Assembly: GCF_030063195.1 (NCBI RefSeq)
Contig: NZ_JASISS010000002.1
Location: 186,001 to 250,000, forward strand
Reading direction: 5' to 3'
Source of the DNA: Cryobacterium sp. PH31-AA6
GTDB taxonomy: Bacteria > Actinomycetota > Actinomycetes > Actinomycetales > Microbacteriaceae
DNA: 64,000 nt
Shown: positions 1-23,003 of the stretch, in pieces
Position numbering within the stretch: the first letter of the stretch is position 1
How the letters are laid out: the number at the start of each line of letters is the position of its first letter
Made by a program: the position numbers and the translations under genes
Notes under the pieces: generated by a model
The model's database searches: none
Told to the model about the DNA's origin: nothing
Seen by the model: the letters and a program-made list of their open reading frames with translations, nothing else

Positions 1-315
1 GTGGGACGCCCCCTCGACGAAGCTCTGCTGGAGGTCGTAGCTGCGCCGAATCGGTATGAGAGCGGTTCGCGCCATCAGGTAGCTGGAGAGGGGGAGCAGG
101 ATCACCAGGATGCTGTATCCGACGATGAGGCCAACGCGCAGATTGGCGAAGCCCTGTTCGGCGGTAGTGATCGACGTGCTGTTCCGTTCCCCCGAGTCCA
201 AGTCGAAGGTGCCGGTGACGTAGCCGTAGATCCCGAGCGCAAAGCCACCAAAGAGCAACAGCTGAACGACGGTGTACGTGAGAGTGAGGCGGATCAGCGC
301 CCGACGAAAAATCAC
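1..315 (-). CDS. Sensor histidine kinase, N-terminal part (cut by window edge)
   Basis: Read on the minus strand from a GTG at 315-313, which overlaps the TGA of the upstream response regulator (GTGA), so the two are translationally coupled. The 105 visible residues show a first membrane segment (about residues 14-30), a short extracytoplasmic loop and a second membrane segment (about 67-84). A juxtamembrane stretch ends in SFVEGASH, the usual start of the H-box with the phospho-accepting histidine. The rest of the kinase lies outside the window. Family knowledge: such kinases autophosphorylate and pass phosphate to the cognate OmpR-type regulator. Being last in an ABC-exporter operon, it probably senses the exporter's substrate or envelope stress; that is inference. 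Confidence 0.85.
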   Translation of the reverse strand, partial: MIFRRALIRLTLTYTVVQLLLFGGFALGIYGYVTGTFDLDSGERNSTSITTAEQGFANLRVGLIVGYSILVILLPLSSYLMARTALIPIRRSYDLQQSFVEGASH

Positions 316-992
316 CGGTCCGCGGCGATCAGATAGCCGGACCCCCGGCGGGTTTCGATGATCTCCACCTCACCGGGGAGGGTGAGTTTCTGGCGCAGAT
401 ACCGGATGTAGGTCTGCACGACGTTGCTGAACCCCTCGTAGTTGCTGTCCCAGGCATGATCAATCAACTCGGATGAGCTGATGATCTGGCCGGCGTTACT
501 CATCAGGTATTCGAGCACGGCGTACTCTTTGGCGGTGAGGGCGATGCTGCGTCCGGCTCGCGTCGCGGTCCTGGTCGCGGGCTCCAAGGTCACGCCCTGG
601 GCGTGGAGCACCGGCGAGAGGGCGCGAGGTGCGCGACGGAGCAGTGCTCTCACTCTCGCGAGAAGCTCCACCAGGTGGAACGGCTTGACGAGGTAGTCGT
701 CGGCACCCGCGTCGAGACCCTCGACCCGGTTTCGTGCGGAATCCAACGCGGTCAGCATCAGGATGGGAATGTTCTTGTTCAGGTCCCGGATTCGATCGCA
801 GACATCCATCCCACCGCGCGGCAACCCGGGCAACATCAGATCCAGCACGACCAGGTCGTAGGTCTCGATCTCGAAGGCTTCGACGCCGGCCGGCGCCGAG
901 TGCACGACGTCAACGGCGTACCCGGCTTCGGCGAGCGTGCGACGGACGATGTCGGCGATCCGCAGGTCGTCCTCGACTACCAGTAGCTTCAT
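312..992 (-). CDS. OmpR/PhoB-family response regulator
   Basis: 226 residues. The receiver domain (about 1-120) has the acidic pair D8/D9, phospho-acceptor D51 in VVLDLMLP, T81 and K103 in the VKPF motif. The C-terminal winged helix (about 130-224) ends with the typical YIRYLRQKL recognition helix and the RGSGYLI wing. It should bind DNA upstream of the ABC operon when phosphorylated by the kinase whose GTG overlaps its stop. The gene starts 29 bases after the lipoprotein gene, in the same direction, so it belongs to the same transcript. Target genes are not visible from sequence alone. Confidence 0.95.
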   Translation of the reverse strand: MKLLVVEDDLRIADIVRRTLAEAGYAVDVVHSAPAGVEAFEIETYDLVVLDLMLPGLPRGGMDVCDRIRDLNKNIPILMLTALDSARNRVEGLDAGADDYLVKPFHLVELLARVRALLRRAPRALSPVLHAQGVTLEPATRTATRAGRSIALTAKEYAVLEYLMSNAGQIISSSELIDHAWDSNYEGFSNVVQTYIRYLRQKLTLPGEVEIIETRRGSGYLIAADR

Positions 993-1021
993 GGGTTTCC
1001 GTTCCAGGCCAAGGATGCCAG

Positions 1022-1588
1022 TTAGTCCGCTGCATCACCAGCGCCGGAGCCCTTTGTCGCCGTCGCGTGGGCGGGCTTCACTCCGGGCGCGCTGACCTCG
1101 AGGGTGAAATCGACCTGGTTCTTCGAACTTCGGTAGATGCTGAAGGAATTCTCCGGAAAGTGCCCCGGCCCGGATTCCGAATCGAACGAGACGGTGGTTT
1201 GGGACTTCGGCGCCAGCGTCACCCCGGCGAGTGCCTGATAGTAGGCCTCGCTCTGCCTGGTGGTGACGTCGGTCATCACATAGTAGATCTCGAACGACGT
1301 CAGTTCGGCGTCGGTGTCGTTGCGCAGGGTCACCTGCAGGCGGTCCTTGATCGCGGCGTGGGTCCGGGGATCCACGTTGTCCTCAACCGCGGCAGACACG
1401 ATCGTGAGCCCGGGAGCCGTGCTGGTGTTGGTGATCGGGTTCGAATTGACCGGGAGCACCGCGGACGCCGACGTTTCGGACCCGGCCGGTGCCTGCGAGC
1501 TCGAGGGAGTCGCTGCCTGGCAGCCGGTCAGACCGGTCACCGCGAGCGTCACGATCAGTGCGACGGGGAAAAGGAGTCGTGCTTTCAT
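1022..1588 (-). CDS. Putative lipoprotein of the ABC/two-component operon
   Basis: 188 residues from an ATG at 1588 that overlaps the stop of the permease gene (ATGA) and follows an AAGGAAG ribosome site. A signal peptide with a clear lipobox (LTGC, cysteine about 23) predicts a membrane-anchored lipoprotein. The following 30 residues are Ser/Ala/Pro-rich linker, and about residues 60-165 form a beta-rich domain with features of FxLYD or DUF4352-like domains (runs such as LQVTLRNDTDAEL). I do not recognise a precise family. Its position between exporter and two-component genes suggests an accessory ligand-binding or sensing role, an inference. Confidence 0.8.
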   Translation of the reverse strand: MKARLLFPVALIVTLAVTGLTGCQAATPSSSQAPAGSETSASAVLPVNSNPITNTSTAPGLTIVSAAVEDNVDPRTHAAIKDRLQVTLRNDTDAELTSFEIYYVMTDVTTRQSEAYYQALAGVTLAPKSQTTVSFDSESGPGHFPENSFSIYRSSKNQVDFTLEVSAPGVKPAHATATKGSGAGDAAD

Positions 1589-2568
1589 GAGATCTTCCTT
1601 TGGAGAGTGCGACGAGTTGTTGCGCCGACGGCGAAGGTCACGGAGGCGAGAGTCGCGACCGCGAGGGTGAACGCGTAGCCCCACATGTCAGCCCAGACGA
1701 AGTCCAGGGGCTGCTGGTTGTACTTGTCCTTGATTCCCAGGAAGGTAAACGACAGCCTCTCGAAGTGCTTGGTTATCGACGAGACTTCCAGGCCGTTACG
1801 GATCCCGTCGAAGCCGGCGAAATTCGCGAGAACCGTCAACTCATCGGCTTTCTTGATCTGAAGCGTCGCGAACAGCCCGCCGGGCACCTGATTGTCGGGG
1901 TCCATCGTATCGCCGATCTGGGGAATGATCAGCACAAATGCGAGCCACACCACGATTGACACGATCAGGCCGGTGCTCAGCCTCGGCGCGAGGGCCGTGA
2001 TGCCGATCGCCAAGGCGCTCCAGAAGGTGAGGTAGAGCCAGGCGACGATCGCCGCGATCAGGATGCGGGCCCCATCGATCGGCTGTAGCGGGGCGTTACC
2101 GATGACCACGATTGCAATGGTCGTCGCGACGGTCAGCAGCGCGACCACGGCGGCCCAGACGAGGGCGAGGCCGGCCACTTTTCCCAACGGAATGGCGAAG
2201 CGGCCGATGGGGCGGCTGAGGATGAGCTGCAGAGTGCCGCGGTGCTTCTCCTTCGCGATCGTGCCGTAGGCGAGCACGATGGCGAACAAGGCACCCAGAA
2301 TCTCCAGGTATTCCACTCCCCCGCGCAGCAGCTGCAGCGGGAAGAAGGTCGGTGCGGCCGGCTTGGTTGTGCTGCCCGCCGCGATCAGCTGCTGAACGTA
2401 GAGGTTGTAGGCATCGATCTGGGTACGGAAACTCGCCGCGGCGACACCCACCGAGATCAGCGTGGCAATCATCAGGAACACCATCAGTACGGCGAAAAGA
2501 CGATCCCGACGAAGATCCAGGAGTTCCTTGCGGGCGACGACCCAGGCGCGCAACGCAGGGTTACTCAT
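1585..2568 (-). CDS. ABC-2 type transporter permease
   Basis: 327 residues. A short cytoplasmic N-terminus (RKELLDLRRDR) is typical of ABC-2/NatB-like permeases. It leads into a first membrane helix (about 24-46), then a long extracytoplasmic loop and five more hydrophobic helices ending near residue 320. The segment KEKHRGTLQLILSRPIGR is the characteristic coupling region of this family. The start overlaps the end of the second permease by 8 bases and the stop overlaps the lipoprotein start by 4, so it is mid-operon. It presumably pairs with the other permease and the ATPase upstream to export a hydrophobic compound; the substrate is unknown. Confidence 0.9.
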   Translation of the reverse strand: MSNPALRAWVVARKELLDLRRDRLFAVLMVFLMIATLISVGVAAASFRTQIDAYNLYVQQLIAAGSTTKPAAPTFFPLQLLRGGVEYLEILGALFAIVLAYGTIAKEKHRGTLQLILSRPIGRFAIPLGKVAGLALVWAAVVALLTVATTIAIVVIGNAPLQPIDGARILIAAIVAWLYLTFWSALAIGITALAPRLSTGLIVSIVVWLAFVLIIPQIGDTMDPDNQVPGGLFATLQIKKADELTVLANFAGFDGIRNGLEVSSITKHFERLSFTFLGIKDKYNQQPLDFVWADMWGYAFTLAVATLASVTFAVGATTRRTLQRKIS

Positions 2569-3460
2569 TCAGACCACTCCTCATTCTGGCGCGTGGGGTC
2601 AGGGCGACGACCACGGTCATCAGCACCAGAAAGGCCAGCAGGATCAGCACACTTGACGTGGCATCGCCGGTCACGGTGGAGTCCTGCAGCACAATACTGG
2701 ACGCCCGTTTGAATTGCTCGGTGACCGAGAGCGGGTCGGTGAGAACAGACACCAGATCGAAGTACCCACCGGGCGGATTCACAGCAGGAACCGGATTGAG
2801 CAATGAGACGGGTCGTGCCGCCGTGCCGATCTGGGGAAGGACGAACGCCACCAGGCTCCAGATCACGAACGGGACCAGCAACGCCGTCGTTTCCTGTCGG
2901 CTGCGCAACCCGGTCAGCATGCCCAGGAGCGCGAAGGACTCGAGCAGCATCCACGACAGCGCGCTGAACGCAACGAGCCGTGCCGTATCGCCCCAGCCCA
3001 GCGGTGCGCCGGTGATGCTGCTGATGATCACCCAGCTGATGGACATGCTGATGCCGATGGCGACCGCCAGAATCATGCCGAGGCCGGCCAACTGGCCGAG
3101 CAGTCGTGCGCCCGATCCCACGGGACGGCTCAACACGAGGTCCGAGGTTGCCGCCCGGCGATCCCGCAGGGTCGACTGAACACCCAGCACGATGGCCATG
3201 AGCGAACCGATCAGGAGAACATAAATGACGGCATTGCGCGCGTAGTAGAGCGGCGAAATGCCGGCGAACGGATTGACAGCTGAGCTGAGGCCGTCGGCAA
3301 TGACCTTGTCATAGACATCCGTCACCGTCTGGTGGGTCACCCACCCGATCACCGAGGACGCGATCACCATGCCGATGAACACCACCAGGAGCAGGTTGGA
3401 CGTGTGAGTGCGTCGGGCGGTGAGCATCTCGTGCCGCGCGCTGACCAGGAAAACTCTCAC
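2561..3460 (-). CDS. ABC-2 type transporter permease
   Basis: 299 residues, with the same architecture as the next gene: a first helix at about 20-42, an extracytoplasmic loop, then five helices. The coupling segment RDRRAATSDLVLSRPVGS matches the corresponding region of the downstream permease, so the two look like diverged paralogues forming a heterodimer. The start is a GTG whose GTGA overlaps the ATPase stop, indicating translational coupling. The protein ends with a short basic tail. Confidence 0.9.
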   Translation of the reverse strand: MRVFLVSARHEMLTARRTHTSNLLLVVFIGMVIASSVIGWVTHQTVTDVYDKVIADGLSSAVNPFAGISPLYYARNAVIYVLLIGSLMAIVLGVQSTLRDRRAATSDLVLSRPVGSGARLLGQLAGLGMILAVAIGISMSISWVIISSITGAPLGWGDTARLVAFSALSWMLLESFALLGMLTGLRSRQETTALLVPFVIWSLVAFVLPQIGTAARPVSLLNPVPAVNPPGGYFDLVSVLTDPLSVTEQFKRASSIVLQDSTVTGDATSSVLILLAFLVLMTVVVALTPRARMRSGLNE

Positions 3461-4194
3461 GCGGCCGACTCCGACTCCACCTGAAAGTAGATCGCCTCGA
3501 GCGAGTCCTCGCCGGGGAACGCCGCCAGGGTGCGCTCAAGGGAGTCGTGATGCACGAGGTGCCCGCCCTTGAGGATTCCGATGCTCGTGCAGGTCTTCGT
3601 CACCTCCGCGAGCAGGTGGGTGTTCATGAAGATCGTCATCCCGAACTCGGAGTTCAAGTGCACGATCGTCTCTCGAAGAGTGCGGACCCCCTCGGGGTCC
3701 AGACCCGACGTCGGTTCGTCGAGGAAAAGCACGGACGGGGAGTGCAGGATCGCCTGGGCGATGCCGACCCGCTGCCGCATCCCCTTACTGAAGGTTCCCA
3801 GCCTCTGACGGTCGTGACCTTCGAAATCGAGAATGCGCAGTACATCGCGGATGCGCGCATCGGGTCGACGAAGACCCGACAGCTGAGCGAAGAACCTCAG
3901 GTTCTCCATCAAGGTCAGATTGTCGTAGAACTGGACGTTCTCCGGCAGATAGCCGATCGACTGGCGAACGCTACGAGGATCGCCCGTGACGCTATGGCCG
4001 CCCACCTCGGCGCTGCCCTGAGTCGGTTCCAGCAGGGTGGTCAGCACATTGACGGTCGTCGTCTTGCCGGCACCGTTGTGCCCCAGTAGCCCAAAGACCT
4101 CCCCCGCCGGAACCTCGAGGGTCAGGGCATCGAGCGCCAGTTTCGGGCCGTAACGCATCGAGAGCTGGTTGGTCGAGATAGCTGGGGTGGTCAT
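3457..4194 (-). CDS. ABC transporter ATP-binding protein (exporter type)
   Basis: 245 residues from the ATG at 4194. An in-frame extension upstream to 4305 is low-complexity and was rejected. Walker A is GHNGAGKT (38-45), the signature is FSKGMRQR, Walker B is SVLFLDEPTSGLDP, and an H-loop is present (MNTHLLAEV). The CcmA/NatA-type sequence powers the two ABC-2 permeases encoded immediately downstream. It is the first gene of the six-gene minus-strand operon (ATPase, permease, permease, lipoprotein, regulator, kinase). The ribosome site is weak, so the start could be slightly different. Confidence 0.92.
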   Translation of the reverse strand: MTTPAISTNQLSMRYGPKLALDALTLEVPAGEVFGLLGHNGAGKTTTVNVLTTLLEPTQGSAEVGGHSVTGDPRSVRQSIGYLPENVQFYDNLTLMENLRFFAQLSGLRRPDARIRDVLRILDFEGHDRQRLGTFSKGMRQRVGIAQAILHSPSVLFLDEPTSGLDPEGVRTLRETIVHLNSEFGMTIFMNTHLLAEVTKTCTSIGILKGGHLVHHDSLERTLAAFPGEDSLEAIYFQVESESAA

Positions 4195-4301
4195 GATCTG
4201 ACCGTAACCGGGCGACCGTGAGACCACGATGAGAAGGCTCTGGGGCCGATGAAACGATGGTGAGGGATCACGGTAGCGGACGTGAGGGGTCCGGCACCCG
4301 A

Positions 4302-10924: not shown

Positions 10925-12589
10925 ATGACGTCACTTCCCGCTCGTCCGGCCGGCATCGCGGTGTCCGAGTTGCTCACCGTTCTCGACGGTTCGGGGTTGC
11001 GTCTGGCATCCGGCCAGGCGCAGTTGCGGCTGTCGTTGACGAGCCCCACCCTGTTTGACCCGTTGGTTCCCTTCGCCGGTCGACGCAGCGGCATCCTGCT
11101 CGCGATCGGGGTGCACCCCCTGGCGGTCGAGTCCGCCGAAGTTCTCCGAAGTGCGGCCCGGAGCGGGTTCGGCGCCGTCGTGATCAAGGCGCTTGGCCTC
11201 AGCGTTGAAACGCTCGCAGCCGTGGCGGATGCAATCGACATCGCTCTCTTCGTGGTGGATGACGAGGTCGAATGGCGGCAATTGGATTCCCTGATCACGT
11301 CGGCCCTCACCACAGCGCCCGAGGACCCCGGCTCCCTGTCCGGCCTCGCGGTCGGCGACCTGTTCGCCCTGGCGAACGCGATCGCCGCCATGGTGGGTGG
11401 CGCCACGGCGATCGAAGATCTGCAGGATCGGGTGCTCGCCTACTCCACGCTGCCCGGCCAGCCCACTGACGAAACGCGCCGGGACGGAATCCTCGGCCGC
11501 CAGGTTCCAGACCTGCCCGACAATGCCGAGGCCTACGCTTCCCTTTTCCAGGCGACGGGGGCGGTCAGGCTTCCGGGTGCGGTGCCTGAGCGCCGGCCCG
11601 GCCTTCCGACGGGAGAAAAGGGGCTGCCCCGGCTCGCGATCGCGGTGCGCGCCGGCACGCAGCCGCTTGGTTCGATCTGGGTGATCGACGAGGCCGGCAC
11701 CCTGGATTCTGATGCCGAAGGCGCGTTGGAACGCGCCGCCGACATCGCCGCGCTCCACATCCTGCGCGCGCGCAGCGCCGCGGACGTGGCCCGCCAGCAG
11801 CGCGCCGAACTGCTGCGCCGCCTGCTCGAGGGGGGCGAGGATTCCCGCCTCGTGGCCGGGCAGCTGGGCATCGATACCGCCGGGTCCTTTGTCGCTGTCG
11901 CCTTCCAACCCGATTTCGGGCCGGCCGGTGACGAGTTGCGGCTGAACCGCCTCGTCGACCTCATCGTCATGCACTGTGAGACGCACGAACAGGGCACCGA
12001 GTGCGTCGTGATCGGCAACATCGTCTATGCGCTCTTCACGGGGGTGACCGGATCCCAGCCTTCGGGGGCGCAATTTCTGGCCGCCCGGCTTGCGGGGGTG
12101 GAAGCCATGGTCGGGCGACTGGTCGCGCGGGCCGCGACCGCCCTGCGGATCGTCGTGCGGGCATCCATCGGGTCCCAGGTGACGAGCGTCGGACGGATCA
12201 GCCGTTCGCGACGCGACGCCGACCTGGTCCTGCTTCTCCTGGCCAGCGGGCCGGCCGCGGGAGCGGTCGCGAGTGCGGGCGACGTGCGCAGCCATCTGAC
12301 GCTTCTCGAACTGGCCGGAATCTTCAGGGACAACCCCGGGCTGCGGTCGCAACAGGCCGTGGCCGTGCTTGAATTCGACGAGCGGAGCGGCACCGACTAC
12401 GCCAGAACCCTGCGCACCTACCTGGATTGTGCGCGCGATTCGGCGTCGACCGCCCTACGGCTCGATGTACACCAGAACACCCTGAGATATCGGTTGCGTC
12501 GGGCGCACGAACTCTTCGCCATCGACCTCGCCGATGCCGAGGACACGCTCACTCTCTGGCTGAGCCTTCGGGTGGCGGAATTCGACTGA
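10925..12589 (+). CDS. PucR/CdaR-type transcriptional regulator
   Basis: 554 residues. The N-terminal PucR-like domain (about 1-130) is followed by a GAF-like middle region and a GGDEF-like CdaR segment (about 330-470). The C-terminal HTH_30 helix-turn-helix (about 490-550) contains LRTYLDCARDSASTALRL and HQNTLRYRLRRAHELF, the hallmark of the PucR family. These regulators control purine, amino-acid or sugar-acid catabolism, often from a divergent position. It is divergent from the GNAT/racemase/ABC-importer genes, separated by only 66 bases, so it is the obvious candidate to control them. Confidence 0.9.
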   Translation: MTSLPARPAGIAVSELLTVLDGSGLRLASGQAQLRLSLTSPTLFDPLVPFAGRRSGILLAIGVHPLAVESAEVLRSAARSGFGAVVIKALGLSVETLAAVADAIDIALFVVDDEVEWRQLDSLITSALTTAPEDPGSLSGLAVGDLFALANAIAAMVGGATAIEDLQDRVLAYSTLPGQPTDETRRDGILGRQVPDLPDNAEAYASLFQATGAVRLPGAVPERRPGLPTGEKGLPRLAIAVRAGTQPLGSIWVIDEAGTLDSDAEGALERAADIAALHILRARSAADVARQQRAELLRRLLEGGEDSRLVAGQLGIDTAGSFVAVAFQPDFGPAGDELRLNRLVDLIVMHCETHEQGTECVVIGNIVYALFTGVTGSQPSGAQFLAARLAGVEAMVGRLVARAATALRIVVRASIGSQVTSVGRISRSRRDADLVLLLLASGPAAGAVASAGDVRSHLTLLELAGIFRDNPGLRSQQAVAVLEFDERSGTDYARTLRTYLDCARDSASTALRLDVHQNTLRYRLRRAHELFAIDLADAEDTLTLWLSLRVAEFD

Positions 12590-12661: not shown

Positions 12662-12667
12662 TATAAT
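12662..12667 (+). promoter_or_regulatory. -10 box of the V/A-ATPase operon
   Basis: A perfect TATAAT sits 31 bases before the ATG of the first ATPase gene, in an otherwise very GC-rich gap. No convincing -35 hexamer is present at 17 bases. It is the only consensus -10 I noticed in the window. Confidence 0.55.
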
Positions 12668-12698
12668 CAGGGTACTTGCATGTTGCAGGGGAGGTGCC

Positions 12699-13130
12699 AT
12701 GGCACGGCCGAACATTTTGGACCGCTTCCGTCCTGCCGGCGCGCCGGGCGCGGCGGGCCCGGCCGGTGTCCCCTCCTCTGATCGGCTCGGACCGGCCGCG
12801 GAGCTGGCCGCCGTCTTCGCCGCACTCGCAACCGACGTGGAATCCTGTCAGGGGCTCGTACAGGCCGCCCGGCTGGCTTCGGAAAGTGAGTTGTCCCACG
12901 CCAGGGAGAGTGCCGACGCGCTGATCGCCCAGGCCCGATTGGATGCGGGGGCCGAACAGTCGCGCGCCGCAGCACGCGTCCTGGACGCCGCTTCGGAAAC
13001 TGATACCCAGTTGCTGGAGCGGGCCGATGGGGAGGCAGCCGAGCTCCGGGAAACCGGCACGGCCCGGATGCCCGCGGCGGTCCGGCAGGTCATCGATACC
13101 CTGCTGGCCGAGCAGCTGACTCGGCCATGA
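12699..13130 (+). CDS. V/A-type ATPase stator subunit (G/H-like)
   Basis: 143 residues after a strong GGGGAGGTG site. A Pro/Gly-rich start of about 30 residues is followed by an almost continuous charged Ala-rich helix (about 33-135) with heptad character. This is as expected for the peripheral-stalk G/H subunit that pairs with subunit E. Sequence identity to known H subunits cannot be judged by eye; the call rests on the coiled coil and on its first position in a complete ATPase operon, as in archaeal and Thermus-type clusters. The stop overlaps the next start (ATGA). Confidence 0.7.
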   Translation: MARPNILDRFRPAGAPGAAGPAGVPSSDRLGPAAELAAVFAALATDVESCQGLVQAARLASESELSHARESADALIAQARLDAGAEQSRAAARVLDAASETDTQLLERADGEAAELRETGTARMPAAVRQVIDTLLAEQLTRP

Positions 13131-14039
13131 ACGCGGATTGGGTCGCTGCCTCCGTCCGGGCGCGATCCATGGCCGAGCGCCGGGTCGGGGCGGGCACAAG
13201 CCGCACTATCGCGGCCCAGCCCAGTTTGACCGCGGGTCTTTCCCTGCTCGCGGACACCGTTTACGCCGATCGAATCGGCGATCTCACCGCTCTCGCCGCT
13301 GCGGAACGCGCCACCCGCGAGACGGTGCTGTGGCATCTCCGGGTGCTCGCAGGGTGGATGCCGGCTACCGGCACGCGGCTGGCGCGGGCGGTCGCCGCCG
13401 CGTACGAGCGCGACAACATCCTCGGTCTGGCCCGCAGCCTGGCTGAGGGCGGGGCCGCGGCGGTGCCCTTCGATCTTGGATCGCTGGGGACGGCGTGGTC
13501 GCGGCTGCAGCGGGCGTCGACCCCCGATGAGCTCACCGAAGCCCTGCGCACGTCCTCCTGGGGAGACGCGGTGCATGGTGGCGGGGCCGCGTTGCCGGAC
13601 ATGCTGACCCTGGTCTGGCTGCGTCGGCTCGCCGAGGTCACGGCGGCGGCGCGGCCCTGGGCCGAAGCCGTGGCGGCCCTGACCGTCGCACGGTTACGCC
13701 TGGTCGATGGAGCCGAACCCGGAGTGGGCATGCGGCGGCTGGTCCGCCCGCTGTTGGGCGAACGGTGGCAGGACGCCACGGATCTCACCACGCTGCGTCC
13801 ACTGTTGCCGCGCTCCGCCGGGGCCGTGCTCCAAGGCGTCGACACGCCCGAAGACCTGTGGCGCGCGGAGTCTCGGCTCCGGGCGACGGTCGAAGCCGAC
13901 GGTTTTCGCCTGCTTCGTGGTTCCATGCCCGGCCCCGAGGTCGTGCTCGGCGGCATTGCGGTGCTGGCGATGGACGCCTGGCGGGTTCGGGCAGCCCTGG
14001 CAGCCACGGCCTCCGGAACGGGTTCCAGCGAGGTGCTCG

Positions 14040-14053
<14 letters not shown>
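13127..14053 (+). CDS. V/A-type ATPase subunit C (d-like)
   Basis: 308 residues, mostly helical and Arg/Ala-rich. The layout matches the funnel-shaped C/d subunit that joins the rotor shaft to the K ring: three similar helical repeats, with DNILGLARSLAEGG near residue 100 resembling the family's N(L/V) contact segment. It lies between the stalk subunit and subunit I, the usual position of ntpC/atpC. Family members are about 320-350 residues, so it is slightly short. It overlaps the previous gene by 4 bases and the next by 14. Confidence 0.78.
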
Positions 14054-15775
<1,722 letters not shown>

Positions 15776-15789
15776 GGCGGATCACGATC

Positions 15790-16014
15790 ATGCCGACCAG
15801 GATCGCCGCGCTGGGCGAACAGTCACTACTGGAAGGGTTCACGCTGGCCGGGGCCGGCGTCTATCCCGCCGAAACCGACGAGGAGGTACGCCGGGCGTGG
15901 GCCGAGCTGCCGGAAGGGACCGGCATCGTGCTGCTGACGCCGCGGGCTGCGGAGGCCCTGGGGGCCATCATCGCGAACCCGCACGGCCCGTTGACCGCGG
16001 TGCTGCCGTCATGA
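15790..16014 (+). CDS. V/A-type ATPase subunit F (short)
   Basis: 74 residues. The fold-defining pieces of subunit F are recognisable: an early glycine-rich turn (FTLAGAGVYPAETDEEV), a central strand (GIVLLTP) and a C-terminal strand. Family members are usually about 100-110 residues, so the C-terminal tail that inserts into the catalytic head is missing or very short. The stop overlaps the subunit E start (ATGA). It lies between K and E as in many bacterial V/A operons. Confidence 0.8.
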   Translation: MPTRIAALGEQSLLEGFTLAGAGVYPAETDEEVRRAWAELPEGTGIVLLTPRAAEALGAIIANPHGPLTAVLPS

Positions 16015-16535
16015 CGGGTCTGCCGACCGGGGCGGATGCCACCCTGGCGCCGGTTCGTGATTCGTTGCGCGCCGCTGCCCTCGCCACTGTCGCTGAGATC
16101 GGGCACGACGCCCGCGAACGGGGGCAGGCGCTGCTTGCCGCGGCAGGGCGGGAGGCCGACGGGATCCGCGCGGCGGCGGCCGCGGCCGGCGAGGACGCCG
16201 CCCGATCCGAGGCGACGATGCGCTCCGCCCGGGTACGCCGACAGGCCCACGAGACCGTGCTGACCCAGCGCAATGCGCTGCGACTGGAGCTCCAGGAGAA
16301 GGTGCGCGTGTCCGCAACAGCGCTACGGACCGACCCGCGTTACCCGGACCTGCTCGCCGGGCTCATCGAACGAGCCCATGCCCTGCTCGGACCCGACGCG
16401 ACCGTCACCGAAAACGAGGACGGCGGTGTCACCGCCGAGGCCGGCTCGCGCCGCCTGGATCTGTCTCTGCCGACCCTGGCCGCCGACACACTCGCTCAGA
16501 TGTCACCGGAGGTGGCTGACCTGTGGCGACGCTAG
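16011..16535 (+). CDS. V/A-type ATPase subunit E
   Basis: 174 residues. A long charged and Ala-rich N-terminal helix (about 15-105) should pair with the G/H subunit. It is followed by a compact C-terminal domain (about 110-174) with the family-like segment DPRYPDLLAGLIERAHALL. It overlaps the neighbours on both sides (ATGA with F; 13 bases with subunit A). The role is peripheral stator. Confidence 0.85.
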   Translation: MTGLPTGADATLAPVRDSLRAAALATVAEIGHDARERGQALLAAAGREADGIRAAAAAAGEDAARSEATMRSARVRRQAHETVLTQRNALRLELQEKVRVSATALRTDPRYPDLLAGLIERAHALLGPDATVTENEDGGVTAEAGSRRLDLSLPTLAADTLAQMSPEVADLWRR

Positions 16536-18271
16536 GTGAGCCACAGGCGGGAACCGTCGTGAGAGTGAGCGGTCCGCTGATGGAGGTCGACGGGGTGGAG
16601 GGCGTTGCCATGCTGGAAATTCTGGCCGTCGGGCCCCAGCGGATCAGCGCGGAGACCGTGGCGATCGCGGGCAACCGGGCGACGCTGCAGGCCTACGAAT
16701 ACACCGGCGGCGTCAAGGCCGGCGACGCGGCGGTCGCCACCGGCAATCAGCTCACCGGCCTGCTCGGGCCGGGCCTGCTCGGCCAGGTCTTCGATGGGTT
16801 GATGCGGCCGCTGTCCTCGGCGCCGCTCTGGCTGACGCCGGGAAGGTCGACCTCCGAGGAGGATCCCGGCATCCTGGCACGAAAATGGACCTTCGTTCCC
16901 TCAGCGGCGGTCGGCGAGCAGGTCTCACCCGGCGACGTGCTCGGCACCGTGCCGGGTGCCGGCTCTGTGGAACACCGAGTGCTTGTGCCACCGGGGATTT
17001 CTGGTGAACTGGCCTGGCTGGCGTCGGAGAGCCAGGTGCGCGCGCTCGATCCGGTCGCCCGGATCGGCTCCCGGGAAGTCAGCTTGGCGGAACGCTGGCC
17101 GGTGCGCTCCGCCCGTCCTTTCCGGGACCGTCCCGCGGGGGCCGTCCCCCTGCACACCGGTCAGCGCGTGCTCGACCTGATGTATCCGCTGGCCCGCGGT
17201 GCCGCCGCCGCCGTGCCGGGCGGATTCGGCACCGGCAAGACCATGCTGCTGCAGCAGATTGCCAAGTGGAGTGACGCGGATGTGATCGTCTACGTGGGCT
17301 GTGGCGAACGGGGCAATGAGATGGCCGACGTGCTGGACGGCCTGTCACAACTCGTCGACGAACGCACCGGAGGCAAACTCATCGACCGCACGGTCATCAT
17401 CGCCAACACCTCCAATATGCCGATGATGGCGCGCGAAGCCAGCATCTATACCGGAATTTGCGTCGCCGAGTACTACCGGGACATGGGGTACGACGTCGTT
17501 GTGATCGCCGACTCCACCTCTCGCTGGGCCGAGGCGCTGCGGGAGTTCGCCAACCGCAACGGTGACCTTCCGGCGGAGGACGGCTACCCGGCGAACCTGG
17601 CTTCGGCGCTTGCGGCCTTCTATGAACGGGCCGGACGGGTGACCACCCTCGGCGGGCGCACGGCATCCGTCACCGTGATCGGGGCGGTGTCCCCACCCGG
17701 CGGTGACATGACGGAACCCGTCACCACCGACACCCAACGATTCGTCCGGTGCCTGTGGCTCCTCGACCGGGACCTGGCCTACTCACGGCACTATCCCGCG
17801 GTCAGCTGGACCGGTTCCTTCACGCGCGACGAAGAAGCGGTCGGGCGCTGGCACACCGCGAACGGAGACCCCGGCTGGGCAAAGCGGCGCGCCCGGGCCG
17901 CGTCGCTCCTGGCCGAGGCCGACCGGCTGGGTGACCTGGCCGACATCATCGGCGCGAACTCGCTCCCCGGTCACGAACGGATGGTGCTGCTGGGTGGGCG
18001 TCTGCTGCGGGACGGAGTCCTGATGCAAAACGCGCTGAGCGCCAACGACGGCTTCTGCTCGGCGGAGAAGGGTGCAGCCCTGCTGGATCTTGTCCTCGAC
18101 GTCGTCGACACCTGCCAGAAACTCGTCGAAGACGGCGTCCCCGCGACTTCGATCGAACAGGCCGATCACGGGCCGGTGCTCCGGGCCCGCGAAGAGACCG
18201 GACCGAGGGACGCCGCTGCCGTGTCTTCCCGCCGGGCCGAGATCGTGCGCGGGCTGGAGGCACTCAGATGA
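16523..18271 (+). CDS. V/A-type ATPase catalytic subunit A
   Basis: 582 residues from a GTG. It has an N-terminal barrel (about 8-70) and the A-subunit-specific bulge (about 110-185). The nucleotide domain carries P-loop GGFGTGKT (233-240), where archaeal and bacterial enzymes usually have GPFGSGKT or GPFGAGKT. The catalytic glutamate is E262 in GERGNE, and SRWAEALREF follows. All residues needed for ATP hydrolysis or synthesis appear intact. The stop overlaps the subunit B start (ATGA). Confidence 0.97.
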   Translation: MATLGEPQAGTVVRVSGPLMEVDGVEGVAMLEILAVGPQRISAETVAIAGNRATLQAYEYTGGVKAGDAAVATGNQLTGLLGPGLLGQVFDGLMRPLSSAPLWLTPGRSTSEEDPGILARKWTFVPSAAVGEQVSPGDVLGTVPGAGSVEHRVLVPPGISGELAWLASESQVRALDPVARIGSREVSLAERWPVRSARPFRDRPAGAVPLHTGQRVLDLMYPLARGAAAAVPGGFGTGKTMLLQQIAKWSDADVIVYVGCGERGNEMADVLDGLSQLVDERTGGKLIDRTVIIANTSNMPMMAREASIYTGICVAEYYRDMGYDVVVIADSTSRWAEALREFANRNGDLPAEDGYPANLASALAAFYERAGRVTTLGGRTASVTVIGAVSPPGGDMTEPVTTDTQRFVRCLWLLDRDLAYSRHYPAVSWTGSFTRDEEAVGRWHTANGDPGWAKRRARAASLLAEADRLGDLADIIGANSLPGHERMVLLGGRLLRDGVLMQNALSANDGFCSAEKGAALLDLVLDVVDTCQKLVEDGVPATSIEQADHGPVLRAREETGPRDAAAVSSRRAEIVRGLEALR

Positions 18272-19707
18272 CGGACAGAACGACGACGCCCGGCGCAGCA
18301 GACTCCGAGAACTTGCCCCGCAAGGCCGAGGGGCGCATCTCGCACGGCGACGTTCGCGAGCTGCGCGGTCCCCTGTTGGTGATGGGAGACGTCGCGGGCG
18401 TCGGGTGGGACGAGTTCGCCTCCGTGGACGTCGCCGGCCGGGAACGGCACGGACTGGTGCTCGAGGTCGACCATGACCTCGTGACACTACAGGTGCTGGA
18501 AGGAACCGATGGGATGGCGCCCGGAAACATCCGGGTTCGATTCGCGGGTCAGCCGCTGCGGATTCCGGTCGGGCCCGGCTGGCTCGGCCGGGTGTGCAAT
18601 GGCCGCGGGGAGCCCCTTGACGGAGGCCCACCAGTCACCGGGGACACCACACTGCCCGTCAGCGGCTGGCCCCTCAACCCGGTGCACCGCGAACCACCTC
18701 AGGAACCGGTCCTCACCGGCATCTCCGTGATCGACGCCCTGACCACCCTGGTCAGGGGCCAGAAACTTCCCATCTTCTCGGTGCCGGGGCTGCCCCACTT
18801 AGCCCTCGCGACCCAGATCGCCGCCCAGGCCACCTCCGGCGGCACCGCGTTCCGAGTCGTCTTCGCGGCCATGGGGCTGACCCACGCCGACATCGCCTAT
18901 GTACGCGACCGGCTGGAGGAACGGTCAGCGGCCGGCGAGCTCGTGCTGTTGCTCAACGCCGCCGATGACCCCGTCATCGAGCGAATTCTCACCCCCCGGA
19001 TCGCGCTGACAGTTGCCGAACACCTGGCCTACACCGAGGGTCACGATGTGCTGGTCATCATGTCGGACATGACCAGCTACGCCGAGGCCGTGCGCGAGGT
19101 CTCGGCCGCCCGACGTGAGATCCCGGCCAGGCGCGGCTACCCCGGCTACCTCTACAGCGACCTGGCCAGCCTGTACGAACGCTGTGGCCGGGTCCGTGGG
19201 CAGAACGGCTCGGTGACGATCGTGCCCGTGCTCACCATGCCCGCCGGCGACATCACGCATCCGGTTCCCGATCTGACCGGCTACATCACGGAGGGTCAGA
19301 TCGTCCTGTCGGCGGAGGTCGCCGCGCGCGGGATCTACCCGCCCGTGGACGCATTGTCTTCATTGTCGCGCCTGATGCGCAGCGGCGCCGGCGCGGGGCG
19401 CACCCGCGAGGACCATCTGGACGTGGCCGCCCAGGTTCTCGCTGCCCTGGCCAGGGCCCGGCAGGCCGCCGAGCTGGCGGAACTGGTCGGTGCCGGAGCT
19501 CTCAGCGAAACGGACCGCAGCTACATCGCCTACCGCGGCCAGGTCGAGAGCGGACTGCTGAATCAGGGACACGATGAGCTGCGCTCCCTGGACGACACGC
19601 TGGGCCGGGCCTGGTCAGCGCTGGCCACGCTGCCCCGCCAGGAACTGACCATGCTGTCCACGGAGTTCCTGGACCGCTACCTGCCGGAGGGGTCGGAGGC
19701 GTCGTGA
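18268..19707 (+). CDS. V/A-type ATPase regulatory subunit B
   Basis: 479 residues. It aligns in outline with subunit B: N-terminal barrel, then GQKLPIFSVPGLPHLALATQIA, where the P-loop is replaced as expected for the non-catalytic subunit. DVLVIMSDMTSYAEAVREVSAARREIP and RGYPGYLYSDLASLYERCGR are strongly conserved family blocks. About 25 residues at the N-terminus (DRTTTPGAADSENL) are extra. It is coupled to A and D by 4-base overlaps. Confidence 0.97.
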   Translation: MTDRTTTPGAADSENLPRKAEGRISHGDVRELRGPLLVMGDVAGVGWDEFASVDVAGRERHGLVLEVDHDLVTLQVLEGTDGMAPGNIRVRFAGQPLRIPVGPGWLGRVCNGRGEPLDGGPPVTGDTTLPVSGWPLNPVHREPPQEPVLTGISVIDALTTLVRGQKLPIFSVPGLPHLALATQIAAQATSGGTAFRVVFAAMGLTHADIAYVRDRLEERSAAGELVLLLNAADDPVIERILTPRIALTVAEHLAYTEGHDVLVIMSDMTSYAEAVREVSAARREIPARRGYPGYLYSDLASLYERCGRVRGQNGSVTIVPVLTMPAGDITHPVPDLTGYITEGQIVLSAEVAARGIYPPVDALSSLSRLMRSGAGAGRTREDHLDVAAQVLAALARARQAAELAELVGAGALSETDRSYIAYRGQVESGLLNQGHDELRSLDDTLGRAWSALATLPRQELTMLSTEFLDRYLPEGSEAS

Positions 19708-20345
19708 CGGACACGGGACGATCGGGAAAGGTGCGCCTCGAGCAGCGCCTGATCACGGCCAGACGCGGCGCCGCCCTACTGGACCGCAAACAGCACATCA
19801 TGACCGATGAACTCGATCGTCTCCAGTTGCACGCCGACGGCATCCGCCACGAGTGGGAGGACCGGGCGCGGGACGCCGCCGTGTGGCTGCGCCGCGCCGC
19901 GGCTCTGGACGGTCGGGAGCGCATCGAGGCCGCCGCGCCCGTCGAGCCGGCCGTGGTCGAGATCCACTGGGGCGGTGCCATGGGCGTCACCTATCCGGAG
20001 GACGCCGACTGCCGACTACCGGACGCCACGGAGCACGGCGGCAGTTCGGCGCTGTCCTACGCGAGGATCGCCCACCGATCCGCTCTCGCCGCAGCGGTCC
20101 AGCACGCCGCGGTCCAGCGTGCGGTGTTGCTTCTGTCCACGGAACTCACGGCAACCCGAACCCGGCAGCGGGCCGTTGAGAACCGCTGGATCCCCAGGCT
20201 GGAAGAGAGGCTGAGCGCGATTCAACGCAAGCTCGAGGACCAGGAACTCGAAGAAGGCCTTCGGGTGCGGTGGGCTGCGGACAGGCAGACGAGTCCCGGC
20301 AGCCAGGCCACCCGGCCGAGAACGTCTGAACGGAAGGAGTCTTGA
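19704..20345 (+). CDS. V/A-type ATPase rotor subunit D
   Basis: 213 residues from a GTG overlapping the subunit B stop. It shows the two long helices of the central shaft: an N-terminal one (about 10-75, LLDRKQHIMTDELDRL resembling the family's LLKxKRDxL block) and a C-terminal one (about 140-195) rich in Arg/Gln/Glu, with a short domain between. It is last of the ATPase subunits; the UspA start follows at once. Confidence 0.9.
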   Translation: MTDTGRSGKVRLEQRLITARRGAALLDRKQHIMTDELDRLQLHADGIRHEWEDRARDAAVWLRRAAALDGRERIEAAAPVEPAVVEIHWGGAMGVTYPEDADCRLPDATEHGGSSALSYARIAHRSALAAAVQHAAVQRAVLLLSTELTATRTRQRAVENRWIPRLEERLSAIQRKLEDQELEEGLRVRWAADRQTSPGSQATRPRTSERKES

Positions 20346-20770
20346 TGAGTGACACCATCCTGCTGGCCGTCAACGATTCGCCTGCGGCGTTCACTGCAGT
20401 AGACGCGGCCGTCGACCAGGCCAGGCGGCTCGGCGCCCGACTGTGTGCCGTGATGGTCATCGAGGAAAGTGAGATGGACCGACACCTCGATGAAACGGAG
20501 CCCTTGGCCCGGCGTCGGGAGCTGGCGGCTGAGGCGGTTCTCAACCACGTTCTCACCGTGGCTACCCGGGCCGGGGTCGAGGTCACGGCGCGTCGACGCA
20601 ACGGCCGGGTTGCCGCGGAAATTCTCGCCGAGGCACACGAGGTCCACGCAACCATGATCGTCATGGCCAGGGTCGATCGCCCCGGCCATGCCATGCCGTT
20701 TATCGGCAGCCATACCCTGCGGGTACTGGAGTTTGCTCGGGTTCCGGTGTTGGTGGTGCCGGAGGGTTGA
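20345..20770 (+). CDS. Universal stress protein (UspA family)
   Basis: 141 residues from an ATG at 20345, preceded by GGAAGGAG and sharing one base with the subunit D stop. A single UspA Rossmann-like domain spans TILLAVNDSPAAFTAVDAAV at the N-terminus to VLEFARVPVLVVPEG at the end. The ATP-binding GxxGx9G(S/T) motif is only partly kept (RPGHAMPFIGSHT). Its place as tenth gene of the ATPase operon is unusual and suggests that the ATPase is made or tuned under energy or envelope stress, an inference. Confidence 0.9.
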   Translation: MSDTILLAVNDSPAAFTAVDAAVDQARRLGARLCAVMVIEESEMDRHLDETEPLARRRELAAEAVLNHVLTVATRAGVEVTARRRNGRVAAEILAEAHEVHATMIVMARVDRPGHAMPFIGSHTLRVLEFARVPVLVVPEG

Positions 20771-20828: not shown

Positions 20829-21128
20829 CTAGGCTCGGTCGTCGTTGATTCGAATCCCGTGCTGAGGAGCGAACGCGACCATATCCCTGATCCGCCAGGC
20901 CAGCGGGGAGGGCAACGGGTAGGACCAGGCGGCATTCGCCAAGTGCTGTTCTTCGGCCGCAACATGATAGTAGCGGGCGATTCCCTTCCAGTAGCACAGG
21001 GTGCGCACCCAGCTCTTGCGCAATATAGCGGGGGCAACTGACTCGCGGGGAAAGTAGTGGTTGCCCTCGAGGTAGATCGTCACCTCCGATTGGGCGAGGA
21101 TGGTGCCGTGGTAACTGGCGGTGATCAT
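20829..21128 (-). CDS. DUF427 domain protein
   Basis: 99 residues. The family's conserved features are present: a YxG-type beta strand with ILAQS, YFP for the first sheet, then CYWKGIARYYHV and NAAWSYPLPSP, with a final VAFAP strand. DUF427 proteins are small beta-rich proteins of unknown function. The start overlaps the stop of the Crp-type regulator (ATGA), so they form one transcript. It is convergent with the UspA gene. Confidence 0.88.
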   Translation of the reverse strand: MITASYHGTILAQSEVTIYLEGNHYFPRESVAPAILRKSWVRTLCYWKGIARYYHVAAEEQHLANAAWSYPLPSPLAWRIRDMVAFAPQHGIRINDDRA

Positions 21129-21835
21129 GCCGTTCTCCTGGCTATGGTGTGCAGGCCGTCGGTGTCCTGGATGATGATGCGTCCCCGGCCCTGCCTGATG
21201 AGGTTGCGGGTGGCGAAATCGGCCATGGTCTTGCTGGTGGCTTCCCTCGTCGCACCGAGCAGCCCGGCCAGTTGCTCATGCGTGAGCCGCAGAATGGCAC
21301 CGTGGCCGAACCGGGGTGTCCGTGTCCCCTCGGCGAGCGTGAGCAAAGTGCCGGCGGCACGTGCGGCCAGTGGCCGGAGGGCGAGATCGGTCAGCCGTCC
21401 CTCGAGCCGGGCGACCTGTTCCCCCAACAGCCGGGAGATGCGGACGGCGATGCGGGGGTCGGAGAGGAAGTACCGCTCGACCTCGGCGACGCTGAGCTGG
21501 CAGATCGCGGCGTCCTCGATCGCTTCGGCATAGTTGTCGTACATTCGCTGGCCGACGAGGAGCATCTCCCCGAACACGGCGCCCGGGTCGAGGATCGCCA
21601 TGGTCAGCGCCTTCCCGTCCTCCGTCACGCGGAAGACACGAACCCGGCCGGCCTTGAGGATGAAGAGCGCGGTGACCGGCTGGCTTTGACTGAAGACGAG
21701 TTCCCCGGCCCGGAACGTGCGAGCCGGGGTCATCAGGTTCATCGCGTCGATCTCGGCCGGGCTCAGGTCCGCGAATAGTTCAACCTCGGTCAGGCAGCTG
21801 AACGGTTCGGCGGGTGTCGATACCAACGGGTTCAC
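21125..21835 (-). CDS. Crp/Fnr-family transcriptional regulator
   Basis: 236 residues from the GTG at 21835; an in-frame GTG at 21913 would overlap the neighbouring gene and was not preferred, but is possible. The N-terminal cyclic-nucleotide-binding fold (about 15-130) contains FRAGELVFSQSQPVTALFIL and PGAVFGEMLLVG. The C-terminal Crp-type winged helix (about 160-230) has LTHEQLAGLLGATREATSKTM as helix-turn-helix. There are no cysteine clusters for iron-sulfur sensing. It is coupled to the DUF427 gene and lies just after a membrane-protein gene. Confidence 0.88.
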   Translation of the reverse strand: MNPLVSTPAEPFSCLTEVELFADLSPAEIDAMNLMTPARTFRAGELVFSQSQPVTALFILKAGRVRVFRVTEDGKALTMAILDPGAVFGEMLLVGQRMYDNYAEAIEDAAICQLSVAEVERYFLSDPRIAVRISRLLGEQVARLEGRLTDLALRPLAARAAGTLLTLAEGTRTPRFGHGAILRLTHEQLAGLLGATREATSKTMADFATRNLIRQGRGRIIIQDTDGLHTIARRTA

Positions 21836-21905
21836 CTCTCGAGCGTCTGGAGACCAGGGACGGACGTCCCCGGTCGGGGCCGCGCTCAGCTCGTCCCCGC
21901 AGCAC

Positions 21906-22364
21906 TCACGCACGGCTCTTCAGGACGCGCACGGCCGTCAGACCAAGAATAGCCCCGTAGATCAGGTGTCCCATCAGGGAGAACACACTGCTCATATCCA
22001 CGCTGAACACGGGCATACCGAGCATGAGGGGCATCATCACCAGGGGGCCGAGAAGCCACCAGATGGCTCCGTAGCTCATGCCGACGAGGGCGCCTCGGCC
22101 GTAGCCGGTGAGGAGGCGGTTGCCGAACAGAACGGTCAGACCCAGGCCGATCAGCACGGAAATCATCAGGTGCACGGCCAAGCCGACCCAGGGCGACGTC
22201 GAGCCGACCATGGACGCGATCACGGTCAGCATGCCCATCATGGCCATCAGCATGCCGAAGACGAGCCCACCGGCGAGTCCCCCGATCACTCCGGCGAGGG
22301 TGCGTCTGCGAAACGTTGCGGACACGGCAGTGGACGGGTGAGACAAAACGGGTGAAGCAGTCAT
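21906..22364 (-). CDS. Membrane protein of unknown function (four or five helices)
   Basis: 152 residues after an AAAGG ribosome site. A polar start of about 20 residues leads into alternating glycine- and methionine-rich helices (about 22-50, 58-80, 92-112, 125-148). The MxxMM-rich segments resemble YagU/DUF6789-like membrane proteins but I cannot assign a family. It is oriented with the Crp regulator downstream and may share its transcript. Confidence 0.7.
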   Translation of the reverse strand: MTASPVLSHPSTAVSATFRRRTLAGVIGGLAGGLVFGMLMAMMGMLTVIASMVGSTSPWVGLAVHLMISVLIGLGLTVLFGNRLLTGYGRGALVGMSYGAIWWLLGPLVMMPLMLGMPVFSVDMSSVFSLMGHLIYGAILGLTAVRVLKSRA

Positions 22365-22514
22365 GGTGCGAACCTTTCATCAGGGGAAATCTTCCAGGGT
22401 CTGAAAGCTATTCCGCGGCCGAACCACAGTTCTGCGATCTGGGACACACAACCAGGAAAAGGGCCGCGGGTCAGGGTCACCCTCGAACCGGGAACGAGGG
22501 AGGAGGATGGGACG

Positions 22515-23003
22515 ATGAATCAAAAGCGCGCTCCGCGGCCACCGGCCGGAATCCTGCGTTGGCTGCTGCACCTGCCCGTGCACGCGTTCCACGCGAGACT
22601 GGGGTTTCTGTTCGGGCACCGATTCCTGATGTTGGTTCACCGGGGGCGCAAGTCCGGAAGAATATTCGAGACTCCCCTGGAGGTCGTTCACTACGACCGG
22701 GATTCGCGGGAGGCCGTGGTCATGGCGGGGTGGGGATCCCGAACCCAGTGGCTGCACAACGCCGAGGCGGGACTGGCGACGGAGATCTGGATCGGCTCGT
22801 CACGGTTCGTTCCTGCAGTGCGCCGACTCGGTCTGGATGAGGCCCAGAAGGTCTTCGAGCACTACGAGCGGCACAGCGGACTGCCGCGCCGCCTCGTCCG
22901 GCGGGTTCTGAGCCGGCTCCTCGGCTGGCGCTATGACGGCTCTCCCGAGGGTCGCCGACGGGTCGTCGAACAGCTGCCACTGATCGGATTCCGCCCCGCC
23001 TGA
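22515..23003 (+). CDS. Nitroreductase-family deazaflavin-dependent oxidoreductase (Ddn-like)
   Basis: 162 residues after GGGAGGAGG. The split-barrel fold is recognisable from LMLVHRGRKSGRIFETPLEVV near residue 40-60, then VVMAGWGSRTQWLHN and a C-terminal helix-rich end. Members related to mycobacterial Ddn use reduced F420 to reduce quinones or nitro compounds; others in the same family bind different flavins. It stands alone between convergent genes. The substrate is unknown. Confidence 0.85.
   Translation: MNQKRAPRPPAGILRWLLHLPVHAFHARLGFLFGHRFLMLVHRGRKSGRIFETPLEVVHYDRDSREAVVMAGWGSRTQWLHNAEAGLATEIWIGSSRFVPAVRRLGLDEAQKVFEHYERHSGLPRRLVRRVLSRLLGWRYDGSPEGRRRVVEQLPLIGFRPA

Follow-up and report, generated by a model that had tools for sequence, protein, structure and literature searches.

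Here, we describe an operon encoding a V/A-type ATPase in Cryobacterium sp. PH31-AA6, which lies in a 64,000-nucleotide stretch of contig NZ_JASISS010000002.1 (positions 186,001 to 250,000; hereafter, the window). Nine subunit genes and an overlapping universal stress protein (Usp) gene make up the whole operon. We consider it reasonably likely that they encode a compact and functional rotary ATPase, which belongs to a V/A-type lineage of actinomycetes and is kept as an optional second enzyme beside the housekeeping F-type synthase, with a reduced stator and a use in energy-poor states. Judged by the sequences of its catalytic, rotor, and membrane subunits, the enzyme is a member of the V/A-type family. 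What is new here is a reduced variant of that family, in which subunit a (subunit I in this operon) has no distal lobe. Neither the actinomycete enzyme nor a subunit a with a single lobe turned up in our literature searches of open-licence papers. A first-pass annotation of this DNA, made from the sequence alone, mentioned none of the reductions in subunits I and F, the tail of subunit H, or the leader of subunit K.

A complete and compact operon

The list of open reading frames and their translations gives ten intact genes on the + strand at positions 12699–20770, in the order H-C-I-K-F-E-A-B-D-Usp. The first encodes subunit H (12699–13130, 143 amino acids [aa]), an H/G, or G-like, peripheral stalk protein with a class-specific N-terminal tail, LDRFRPxGxPG. 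It is followed by subunit C (13127–14053, 308 aa), the d-like foot of the central stalk, and by subunit I (14040–15344, 434 aa; PF01496), which has a one-lobed cytosolic domain and conserved R337 and R394. Subunit K, the c subunit (15341–15775, 144 aa), consists of a leader at residues 1–59 ending in AVA and a single c-type hairpin with E127; only the hairpin matches PF00137. Subunit F (15790–16014, 74 aa) is without its C-terminus, matching positions 1–70 of the 91 in PF01990, and is followed by the peripheral stalk subunit E (16011–16535, 174 aa). The catalytic subunit A (16523–18271, 582 aa), with K239 and E262, scores 654.9 bits against NF003220 (cut-off 470), and the non-catalytic subunit B (18268–19707, 479 aa) scores 588.8 bits against NF003235 (cut-off 349). 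The rotor shaft subunit D (19704–20345, 213 aa; PF01813, 8.3e-29) and, as tenth gene, the Usp (20345–20770; PF00582, 2.5e-21) complete the series. The curated Pfam cut-offs are passed by I, K, A, B, D, F, and Usp, and thus by both rotor subunits, D and the shortened F.

Neighboring subunit genes overlap by 4–14 bases, with the exception of a 14-base gap between K and F. The Usp ATG and the D stop codon overlap by one base at 20345, the last base of the stop being common to both. Subunit A has the P-loop, the GER motif, and the non-homologous region (PF16886); subunit B has FSVPGLPHLA where a P-loop would be and hence no intact P-loop. These results bear out what the first-pass annotation had claimed about the completeness and compactness of the operon, the Usp start on the last base of the D stop, and the catalytic residues of A (K239 and E262), K (E127), and I (R337). 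Its starting coordinate, 12662, is not a gene start. That position is the first base of a TATAAT (12662–12667, + strand), a candidate -10 promoter element lying outside the segment conserved among Cryobacterium copies, in which homology starts at about 12690.

The same arrangement is found in relatives. All nine subunits were detected in 68 of 84 loci of the actinomycete type, the rest being cut or having one subunit undetected, and the gene order is the same in 67 of the 68 complete loci; the exception, L084, has a miscalled H. Because nine subunits recur in the same order across loci, we regard the operon as more than a chance assembly of genes. Across the relatives' loci, 498 of 628 junctions overlap, a count that is inflated by our picking starts nearest to the preceding stop.

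Subunit I and the stator

Subunit I is 408–499 aa long in all 74 uncut actinomycete-type copies (77 frames were found in the 84 loci, and three starting at a contig end were dropped). In a set of 17 distinct canonical proteins, measured from the first start, the length is 593–749 aa. The canonical set comprises Actinomycetota, Enterococcus, Peptoclostridium, and Qingshengfaniella (18 rows, with the same Rubrobacter protein twice, and three actinomycete-type plasmid rows not counted). Missing are ~200 residues, namely the coiled coil and the distal lobe of the cytosolic domain. In an alignment of 22 actinomycete-type sequences with 17 canonical ones (chosen rows), the gap begins after window residue 44–46, and ~200 of residues 39–270 of E. 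gallinarum I are gone. A 56-row profile of I (the window and 55 of 70 others) matches E. hirae I at residues 4–50, very weakly (2.3 bits), and at 275–655. The loss is internal, as the N-terminus of I aligns with canonical N-termini, and it is independent of start choice because this is the N-terminus of the 434-aa form. A longer form of 545 aa, counted from the first in-frame start, was rejected; its extra part overlaps C out of frame.

The structure model of I (mean predicted local distance difference test score [pLDDT] 85, predicted template modeling score [pTM] 0.72) has a single alpha/beta lobe at residues 12–94, followed by the membrane part. It matches known subunits a by VIA-align, the best being 6qum_N with a Z score of 21.1 and a root mean square deviation (rmsd) of 6.6 over 387 residues. 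Residues 11–103 of the model align with residues 9–362 of the mammalian subunit a 9b8q_a (rmsd 2.8, Z score 9.5); since just 90 residues align over that span, the middle of subunit a is skipped in the model. The two-lobed cytosolic domain of the canonical V/A-type architecture is absent here, and R337 is invariant in the 56 aligned rows.

The Thermus thermophilus V/A-type ATPase/synthase (PDB 6qum, 5y5x), which provides this best fold match, has the same kinds of subunits as the window enzyme. However, its subunit I is 652 aa long, compared with 434 aa in the window, and it has a larger collar and two stalks according to the excerpts of PMC6131620. The best PDB sequence match of I is E. hirae NtpI (PDB 8wci), and Enterococcus I is 672 aa (E. 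hirae PDB chain) or 664 aa (E. gallinarum plasmid copy L187). Enterococcus K is 157 aa with two c-type hairpins and its F is 104 aa, whereas window K has a single hairpin and F is 74 aa. Canonical V/A-type enzymes of other Actinomycetota, found in other classes, on a Rubrobacter plasmid, and in the genus mate G028, belong to the same phylum and even the same genus but have an I of 644–749 aa, a K of 71–95 or 164–170 aa, and an F of 107–121 aa (10 frames; two late-start frames set aside). In Rubrobacter, the gene order also differs.

The shortening of F is general in the lineage, with 46–96 aa (median 75) in 79 loci against 106–121 aa in 12 canonical frames; the canonical frames L175 and L182, in which the first ATG/GTG lies late, were set aside. 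A strict pattern for the H tail motif, RFRPxGxPG, finds it in 63 of the 74 candidate H proteins. The other 11 are seven near forms, two apparently miscalled frames, and two E-like proteins (L064, L084). A profile of H was built from the window and 47 of 52 rows selected for RFR, so that the invariance of R9-F10-R11 in it is by choice. Its best match is Thermus subunit G (1.9e-9), at profile positions 40–136 only, to which the tail does not align; F-type b subunits match as well. The model of H has a low-confidence tail and then one helix at residues 31–141. Both stalk genes, E and H, stand in conserved operon positions.

Subunit K is c-like in its second half only. Among 39 rows (the window and 38 of 72), residues 1–59 are poorly conserved, with a mean top-residue frequency of 0.50 vs 0.91 for residues 78–144, and 37 of the 39 have a small residue at 57 together with Ala at 59. 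This small-x-Ala pattern fits the rule for signal peptidase sites. Therefore, K is probably made with a leader that would be cleaved after residue 59 to leave a two-helix c subunit. E127 is invariant in the 39 rows, as are V98 and G128 beside it. The Gln/Thr ligands that stand next to the c-subunit Glu in Na+-type enzymes are absent, and V98 and G128 occupy the ligand positions in an alignment made by eye. As these invariant residues stand where Na+ enzymes have ligands, the transported ion is predicted to be H+, unlike the E. hirae V-ATPase, which is described as pumping Na+.

How the complex assembles, which ion it moves and in which direction, and under what conditions, we infer as follows. 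A3B3, a D/F/C shaft, and an I/K motor would hydrolyze ATP and pump protons out, or run reversed. The I collar keeps one lobe, beside the membrane part, and the N-terminal tail of H is at the collar end of the stalk. We would expect one E-H stalk or, failing that, a dock that has been rebuilt. The likeliest use would be to sustain the membrane potential or the pH when cells are short of energy, hypoxic, or dormant. A main role in ATP synthesis when the proton-motive force is low seems to us less likely than not. With its leader removed, K would be a two-helix c subunit and would give a high H+/ATP ratio, as in Thermus, which speaks for synthesis. However, a complete F-type synthase is already present in the genome, and the Usp and dormancy links discussed below fit ATP-spending upkeep as well as they fit synthesis.

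The excerpts of PMC6131620 describe the A-type collar as formed by subunit a alone and in contact with both peripheral stalks, of which there are two in A-type and three in V-type enzymes, with the C-terminal globular part of EG meeting subunit B in A-ATPases. Because the A-type collar is a domain of subunit a that touches both stalks, a collar with one lobe may offer one dock. The reduced stator is well supported at the level of sequence and model, and by analogy with these enzymes, we predict a stator that is either one-stalked or rebuilt. A competing view, to which we would give somewhat more than one chance in three, is that this is an ordinary V/A-type enzyme with two stalks whose short I is mere streamlining, the second stalk being held in some other way, for example by the H tail or by a lobe that carries both stalks. 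E and H, the stator genes, have been retained, the H tail is conserved at the collar end, and gene order is maintained in nearly all complete loci, all of which would be expected of such an enzyme. On the other hand, in known A-type enzymes it is the cytosolic domain of subunit a that anchors both stalks (PMC6131620, excerpts), and here this domain has one lobe.

Distribution and ancestry of the operon

The host genome (3.68 Mb, 63 contigs) also encodes an F-type ATP synthase, whose operon is complete and runs atpB-E-F-H-A-G-D-C; the first-pass annotation had suggested looking for it. Coexistence of V/A-type and F-type enzymes is not new, since the excerpts of PMC10656485 report A/V-type enzymes in 23 of 50 bacterial phylum-level lineages and both types in 19.

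We searched for V-type A with NF003220 (E up to 1e-100; own genome included) in overlapping samples of the genus, family, order, class, and phylum. The counts are 6 of 57 for the genus (5 over the cut-off), 4 of 398 for the family, 12 of 347 for the order, and 15 of 394 for the class. This rarity among relatives agrees with the first-pass annotation, which had called V/A-type enzymes rare in Actinobacteria. The order and class samples each contain one canonical-like score near 770 bits, the rest being 560–677 bits. In the phylum sample, 94 of 396 genomes have a V-type A; the 93 besides the host all lie outside the class, and most full-length ones score 800–930 bits. Within the genus, the actinomycete type is present in 5 of the 57 genomes, with a shifted frame in one (G033), and one further genome, G028, has a canonical V-ATPase. 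Separately, we observed A frames of 1068–1151 aa in G839, G956, G997, G1029, and G1048, with match halves meeting at about profile position 234–256, as expected for an intein at the P-loop.

A scan for relatives returned 234 loci, of which the best 80 were kept. All of these are labeled actinobacterial except one metagenome-assembled genome (MAG) labeled Proteobacteria (L022), which groups with an Actinomycetes MAG. Identities among the best 80 are 89% for Cryobacterium, 71–83% for Arthrobacter, 67–69% for Demequina, and mostly 59–64% for Streptomyces, Mycobacterium, Nocardia, Nocardioides, and others. Seventeen plasmid records also match, the best four being Streptomyces and Embleya plasmids of 0.9–3.1 Mb at 57–60%; plasmid matches outside Actinomycetota reach at most 45% in A. 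This V/A-type lineage thus occurs patchily in many families of actinomycetes, and its gene order is constant.

On a 58-kb plasmid of Pseudonocardia broussonetiae (L185), only V-type F, A, and B are annotated, adjoining a P-type ATPase and a recombinase, and its A is 48% identical to window A. A mobilizable plasmid of the alphaproteobacterium Qingshengfaniella alkalisoli (L188) has the annotated order B-D-I-K-x-x-A, and its I of 593 aa is the shortest of the canonical set.

In a tree of 90 A sequences made by a quick method, 81 actinomycete-type rows separate from 9 canonical Actinomycetota rows with support of 100; Rubrobacter is not among the nine, and all rows come from the same phylum, so that outside donors are not placed. 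The tree omits eight close Arthrobacter rows, L104 (from the genome of L020), several order-sample loci, and rows below 540 aa, including L057, L107, and L109. The window pairs with Cryobacterium PH29-G1 (99), then with two further Cryobacterium (97), within a 37-row set (99). The V-ATPase of the genus mate G028 (L103, G028:C32:160000-179500), with its I of 644 aa, falls in the canonical clade, and the genus Cryobacterium thus holds two different V-type operons.

The first-pass annotation had looked to a foreign donor lineage, which is not favored by this placement, within the limits of same-phylum rows. Recent import of a standard V/A-type operon from archaeal, Thermus-like, or Bacillota donors is, in our estimate, very improbable. 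Such an import would account for the patchy presence, for other Cryobacterium copies standing in unrelated flanks, and for the different, canonical enzyme of G028. It is opposed by the position of the window inside the actinomycete clade next to Cryobacterium, by the nearly uniform actinobacterial labels of the best 80 loci, and by the low identity of A on plasmids outside Actinomycetota. High GC content as a mark of import was rejected: operon GC is 0.697 vs 0.662, mean GC at third codon positions (GC3) is 0.82 vs 0.85 and so not raised, and the operon is GC-richer than its flanks in all six relatives checked. The annotation had also held that a vertically inherited clade present in all close relatives would make the operon ordinary; it does lie inside an actinomycete clade, but it is missing from most close relatives.

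Homology between the window and four other Cryobacterium copies (G049, G023, G047, and G033) is confined to about 12690–20762, and, apart from an MMPL gene shared with G033, their flanks are unrelated to the window. Over the operon, DNA identity is 78% to G049, 73% to G023, and 71% to G047, compared with 87–88% for F-type atpA. Since homology ends at the operon edges and the flanks are unrelated, the operon and Usp appear to behave as a unit that was either transferred or is fast-diverging and relocated. Microbacteriaceae as a single clade is not rejected (approximately unbiased test, p-AU 0.18); therefore, vertical descent with many losses remains compatible with the tree in that family. A single clade of five Mycobacteriaceae rows is rejected (p-AU 4.8e-7), for a group picked after seeing the tree, with three MAGs among the five and a sixth row (L064, a MAG) excluded. 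This rejection suggests rather than proves transfer between families. No clean empty site was found in the G037 and G049 stretches with downstream genes; G037, which has no V-ATPase, and G049, which has one on another contig, carry some of these genes in another order and without an adjacent operon.

There is precedent for such movement in the V-type atp operons of Thaumarchaeota, which the excerpts of PMC6863869 describe as optional, moved as a unit, present also beside a resident ATPase, and tied to acid or pressure. They differ from the present case in being archaeal, in having no short subunit I described in those excerpts, and in a role backed by expression, compared with genes alone here.

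The surroundings of the operon in the window can be described as follows. Window positions 1–4234 contain a response regulator/ABC-2 transporter block. In Salinibacterium (L027:1755-5963), this block immediately precedes the V-ATPase operon, a hint that the two once had a common location. Just upstream of the window operon, on the same strand, is a PucR-type regulator gene (10961–12589); a scan of the other 85 loci, some with short flanks, yielded no homologue. Downstream of Usp, 20829–23003 encodes a DUF427 protein, a Crp/FNR-type regulator, a DUF6789-like protein, and an F420-type reductase. The block of regulator and reductase recurs in G049, where it adjoins the MarR/ClC pair and the genes that separate the two in the window are missing.

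Possible links to stress and dormancy

Of the 81 loci that could be assessed, at least 35 have the Usp gene directly 3' of D and 3 more have it within 1 kb; in 43, it was not found there. The 35 are a minimum, because some Usp genes were given a start that lies too far upstream; 3 of the 84 loci are cut. Other recurring neighbor families are tandem Usp proteins (13 loci), a cation P-type ATPase (11, one member apparently a spurious frame), nitroreductase-family proteins (8), an E1 dehydrogenase (8), pyruvate phosphate dikinase (PPDK)-like proteins (6), and a CBS protein (5). Their members are mostly from Streptomycetaceae, Nocardiaceae, Mycobacteriaceae, and Micromonosporaceae, with half of the PPDK loci from Micrococcaceae. 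On the S. fungicidicus plasmid, Usp, CBS, and P-type ATPase genes adjoin the operon. In 8 Micrococcaceae loci, we also observed one gene family 4–146 bases upstream of the operon (e.g., L037:5329-5664); the one member that was scanned is EncFtn-like (encapsulated ferritin-like).

For the dormancy regulator OsdR of S. coelicolor, a regulon has been predicted that contains genes for Usp, nitroreductase, and pyruvate phosphate dikinase, and the published OsdR consensus is AGGGCCGATCGGCCCT (PMC5069765, excerpts). We scanned 69 operon upstreams for it, from 10 of the 14 Streptomycetaceae and 59 others (L069, L084, L190, and L191 have no usable H start). Four of the 10 Streptomycetaceae upstreams score 14 of 16, and the L060 site is identical to the printed site of osdR itself. 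Scores of at least 13 of 16 occur at 0.1 per set in shuffles (largest, 1 in 40 sets) and in 7.3% of 123 other same-locus genes. A looser palindrome, chosen post hoc and to be taken as a lead only, is present in 10 of 72 upstreams vs 1.9 in shuffles (largest, 6 in 60). Based on Usp adjacency, dormancy-type neighbors, and the Streptomycetaceae OsdR boxes, we link the enzyme to stress or dormancy with moderate confidence, mostly through its relatives. The stress role first proposed from the Usp gene has comparative support in this adjacency, but no regulatory box was found in Cryobacterium.

Several observations speak against our overall interpretation. Subunits H, C, and E match their expected Pfam families only below cut-off (C with 20.5 bits, 3.5e-4, against 29 for PF01992; E with 15.1 bits against 24.2 for PF01991); the operon positions of C and E are conserved. 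The match of H to G is partly coiled-coil bias, as a designed helical bundle also matches (1.1e-6), and one I lobe could still hold two stalks. The neighbor families were named from one Pfam-scanned member each, with no control set. Beyond Streptomycetaceae, 1 of 59 upstreams (Salinibacterium) reaches 13 of 16, and the window upstream has no OsdR-like box, its best score being 9 of 16. Nor is a DevR box enriched in 72 upstreams (mean 11.92 vs 11.85 shuffled), using a mycobacterial-type consensus. Finally, 51 of the 57 genus genomes have no V-type A at all and 52 lack the actinomycete type, and in one Cryobacterium copy (L107, G033:C3:48000-67000), the A frame shifts once at about residue 338. 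Error and decay are inseparable there, because G033 is an 800-contig draft with 6% contamination. The absences and this frameshift are what one would cite for a decaying relic without function. We give that view hardly any weight, as the ten overlapping frames of the window are intact, and the P-loop is kept in 82 and GERGNE in 83 of 84 A proteins and the R337 motif in 68 of 74 I proteins.

Returning to the interpretation of a working second enzyme with a reduced stator, a more specific form of it can be put forward tentatively, though we would not bet on it at even odds. This would be a single-stalk V/A-type enzyme, convergent with the F-type, in which the loss of the distal lobe of I took away one docking site and the collar was taken over by the tail of H. 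Actinomycetes would keep it as a transferable second rotary enzyme for times of dormancy or energy stress, and part of Streptomyces would have placed it under OsdR-type control.

A lineage that has lost much of the collar offers a natural test of whether torque, elasticity, or regulation depends on a second stalk. Furthermore, actinomycetes keep this extra rotary pump, here beside a full F-type synthase, presumably for a special state, and the Streptomyces boxes and the conserved Usp gene point to a testable one, dormancy or hypoxia.

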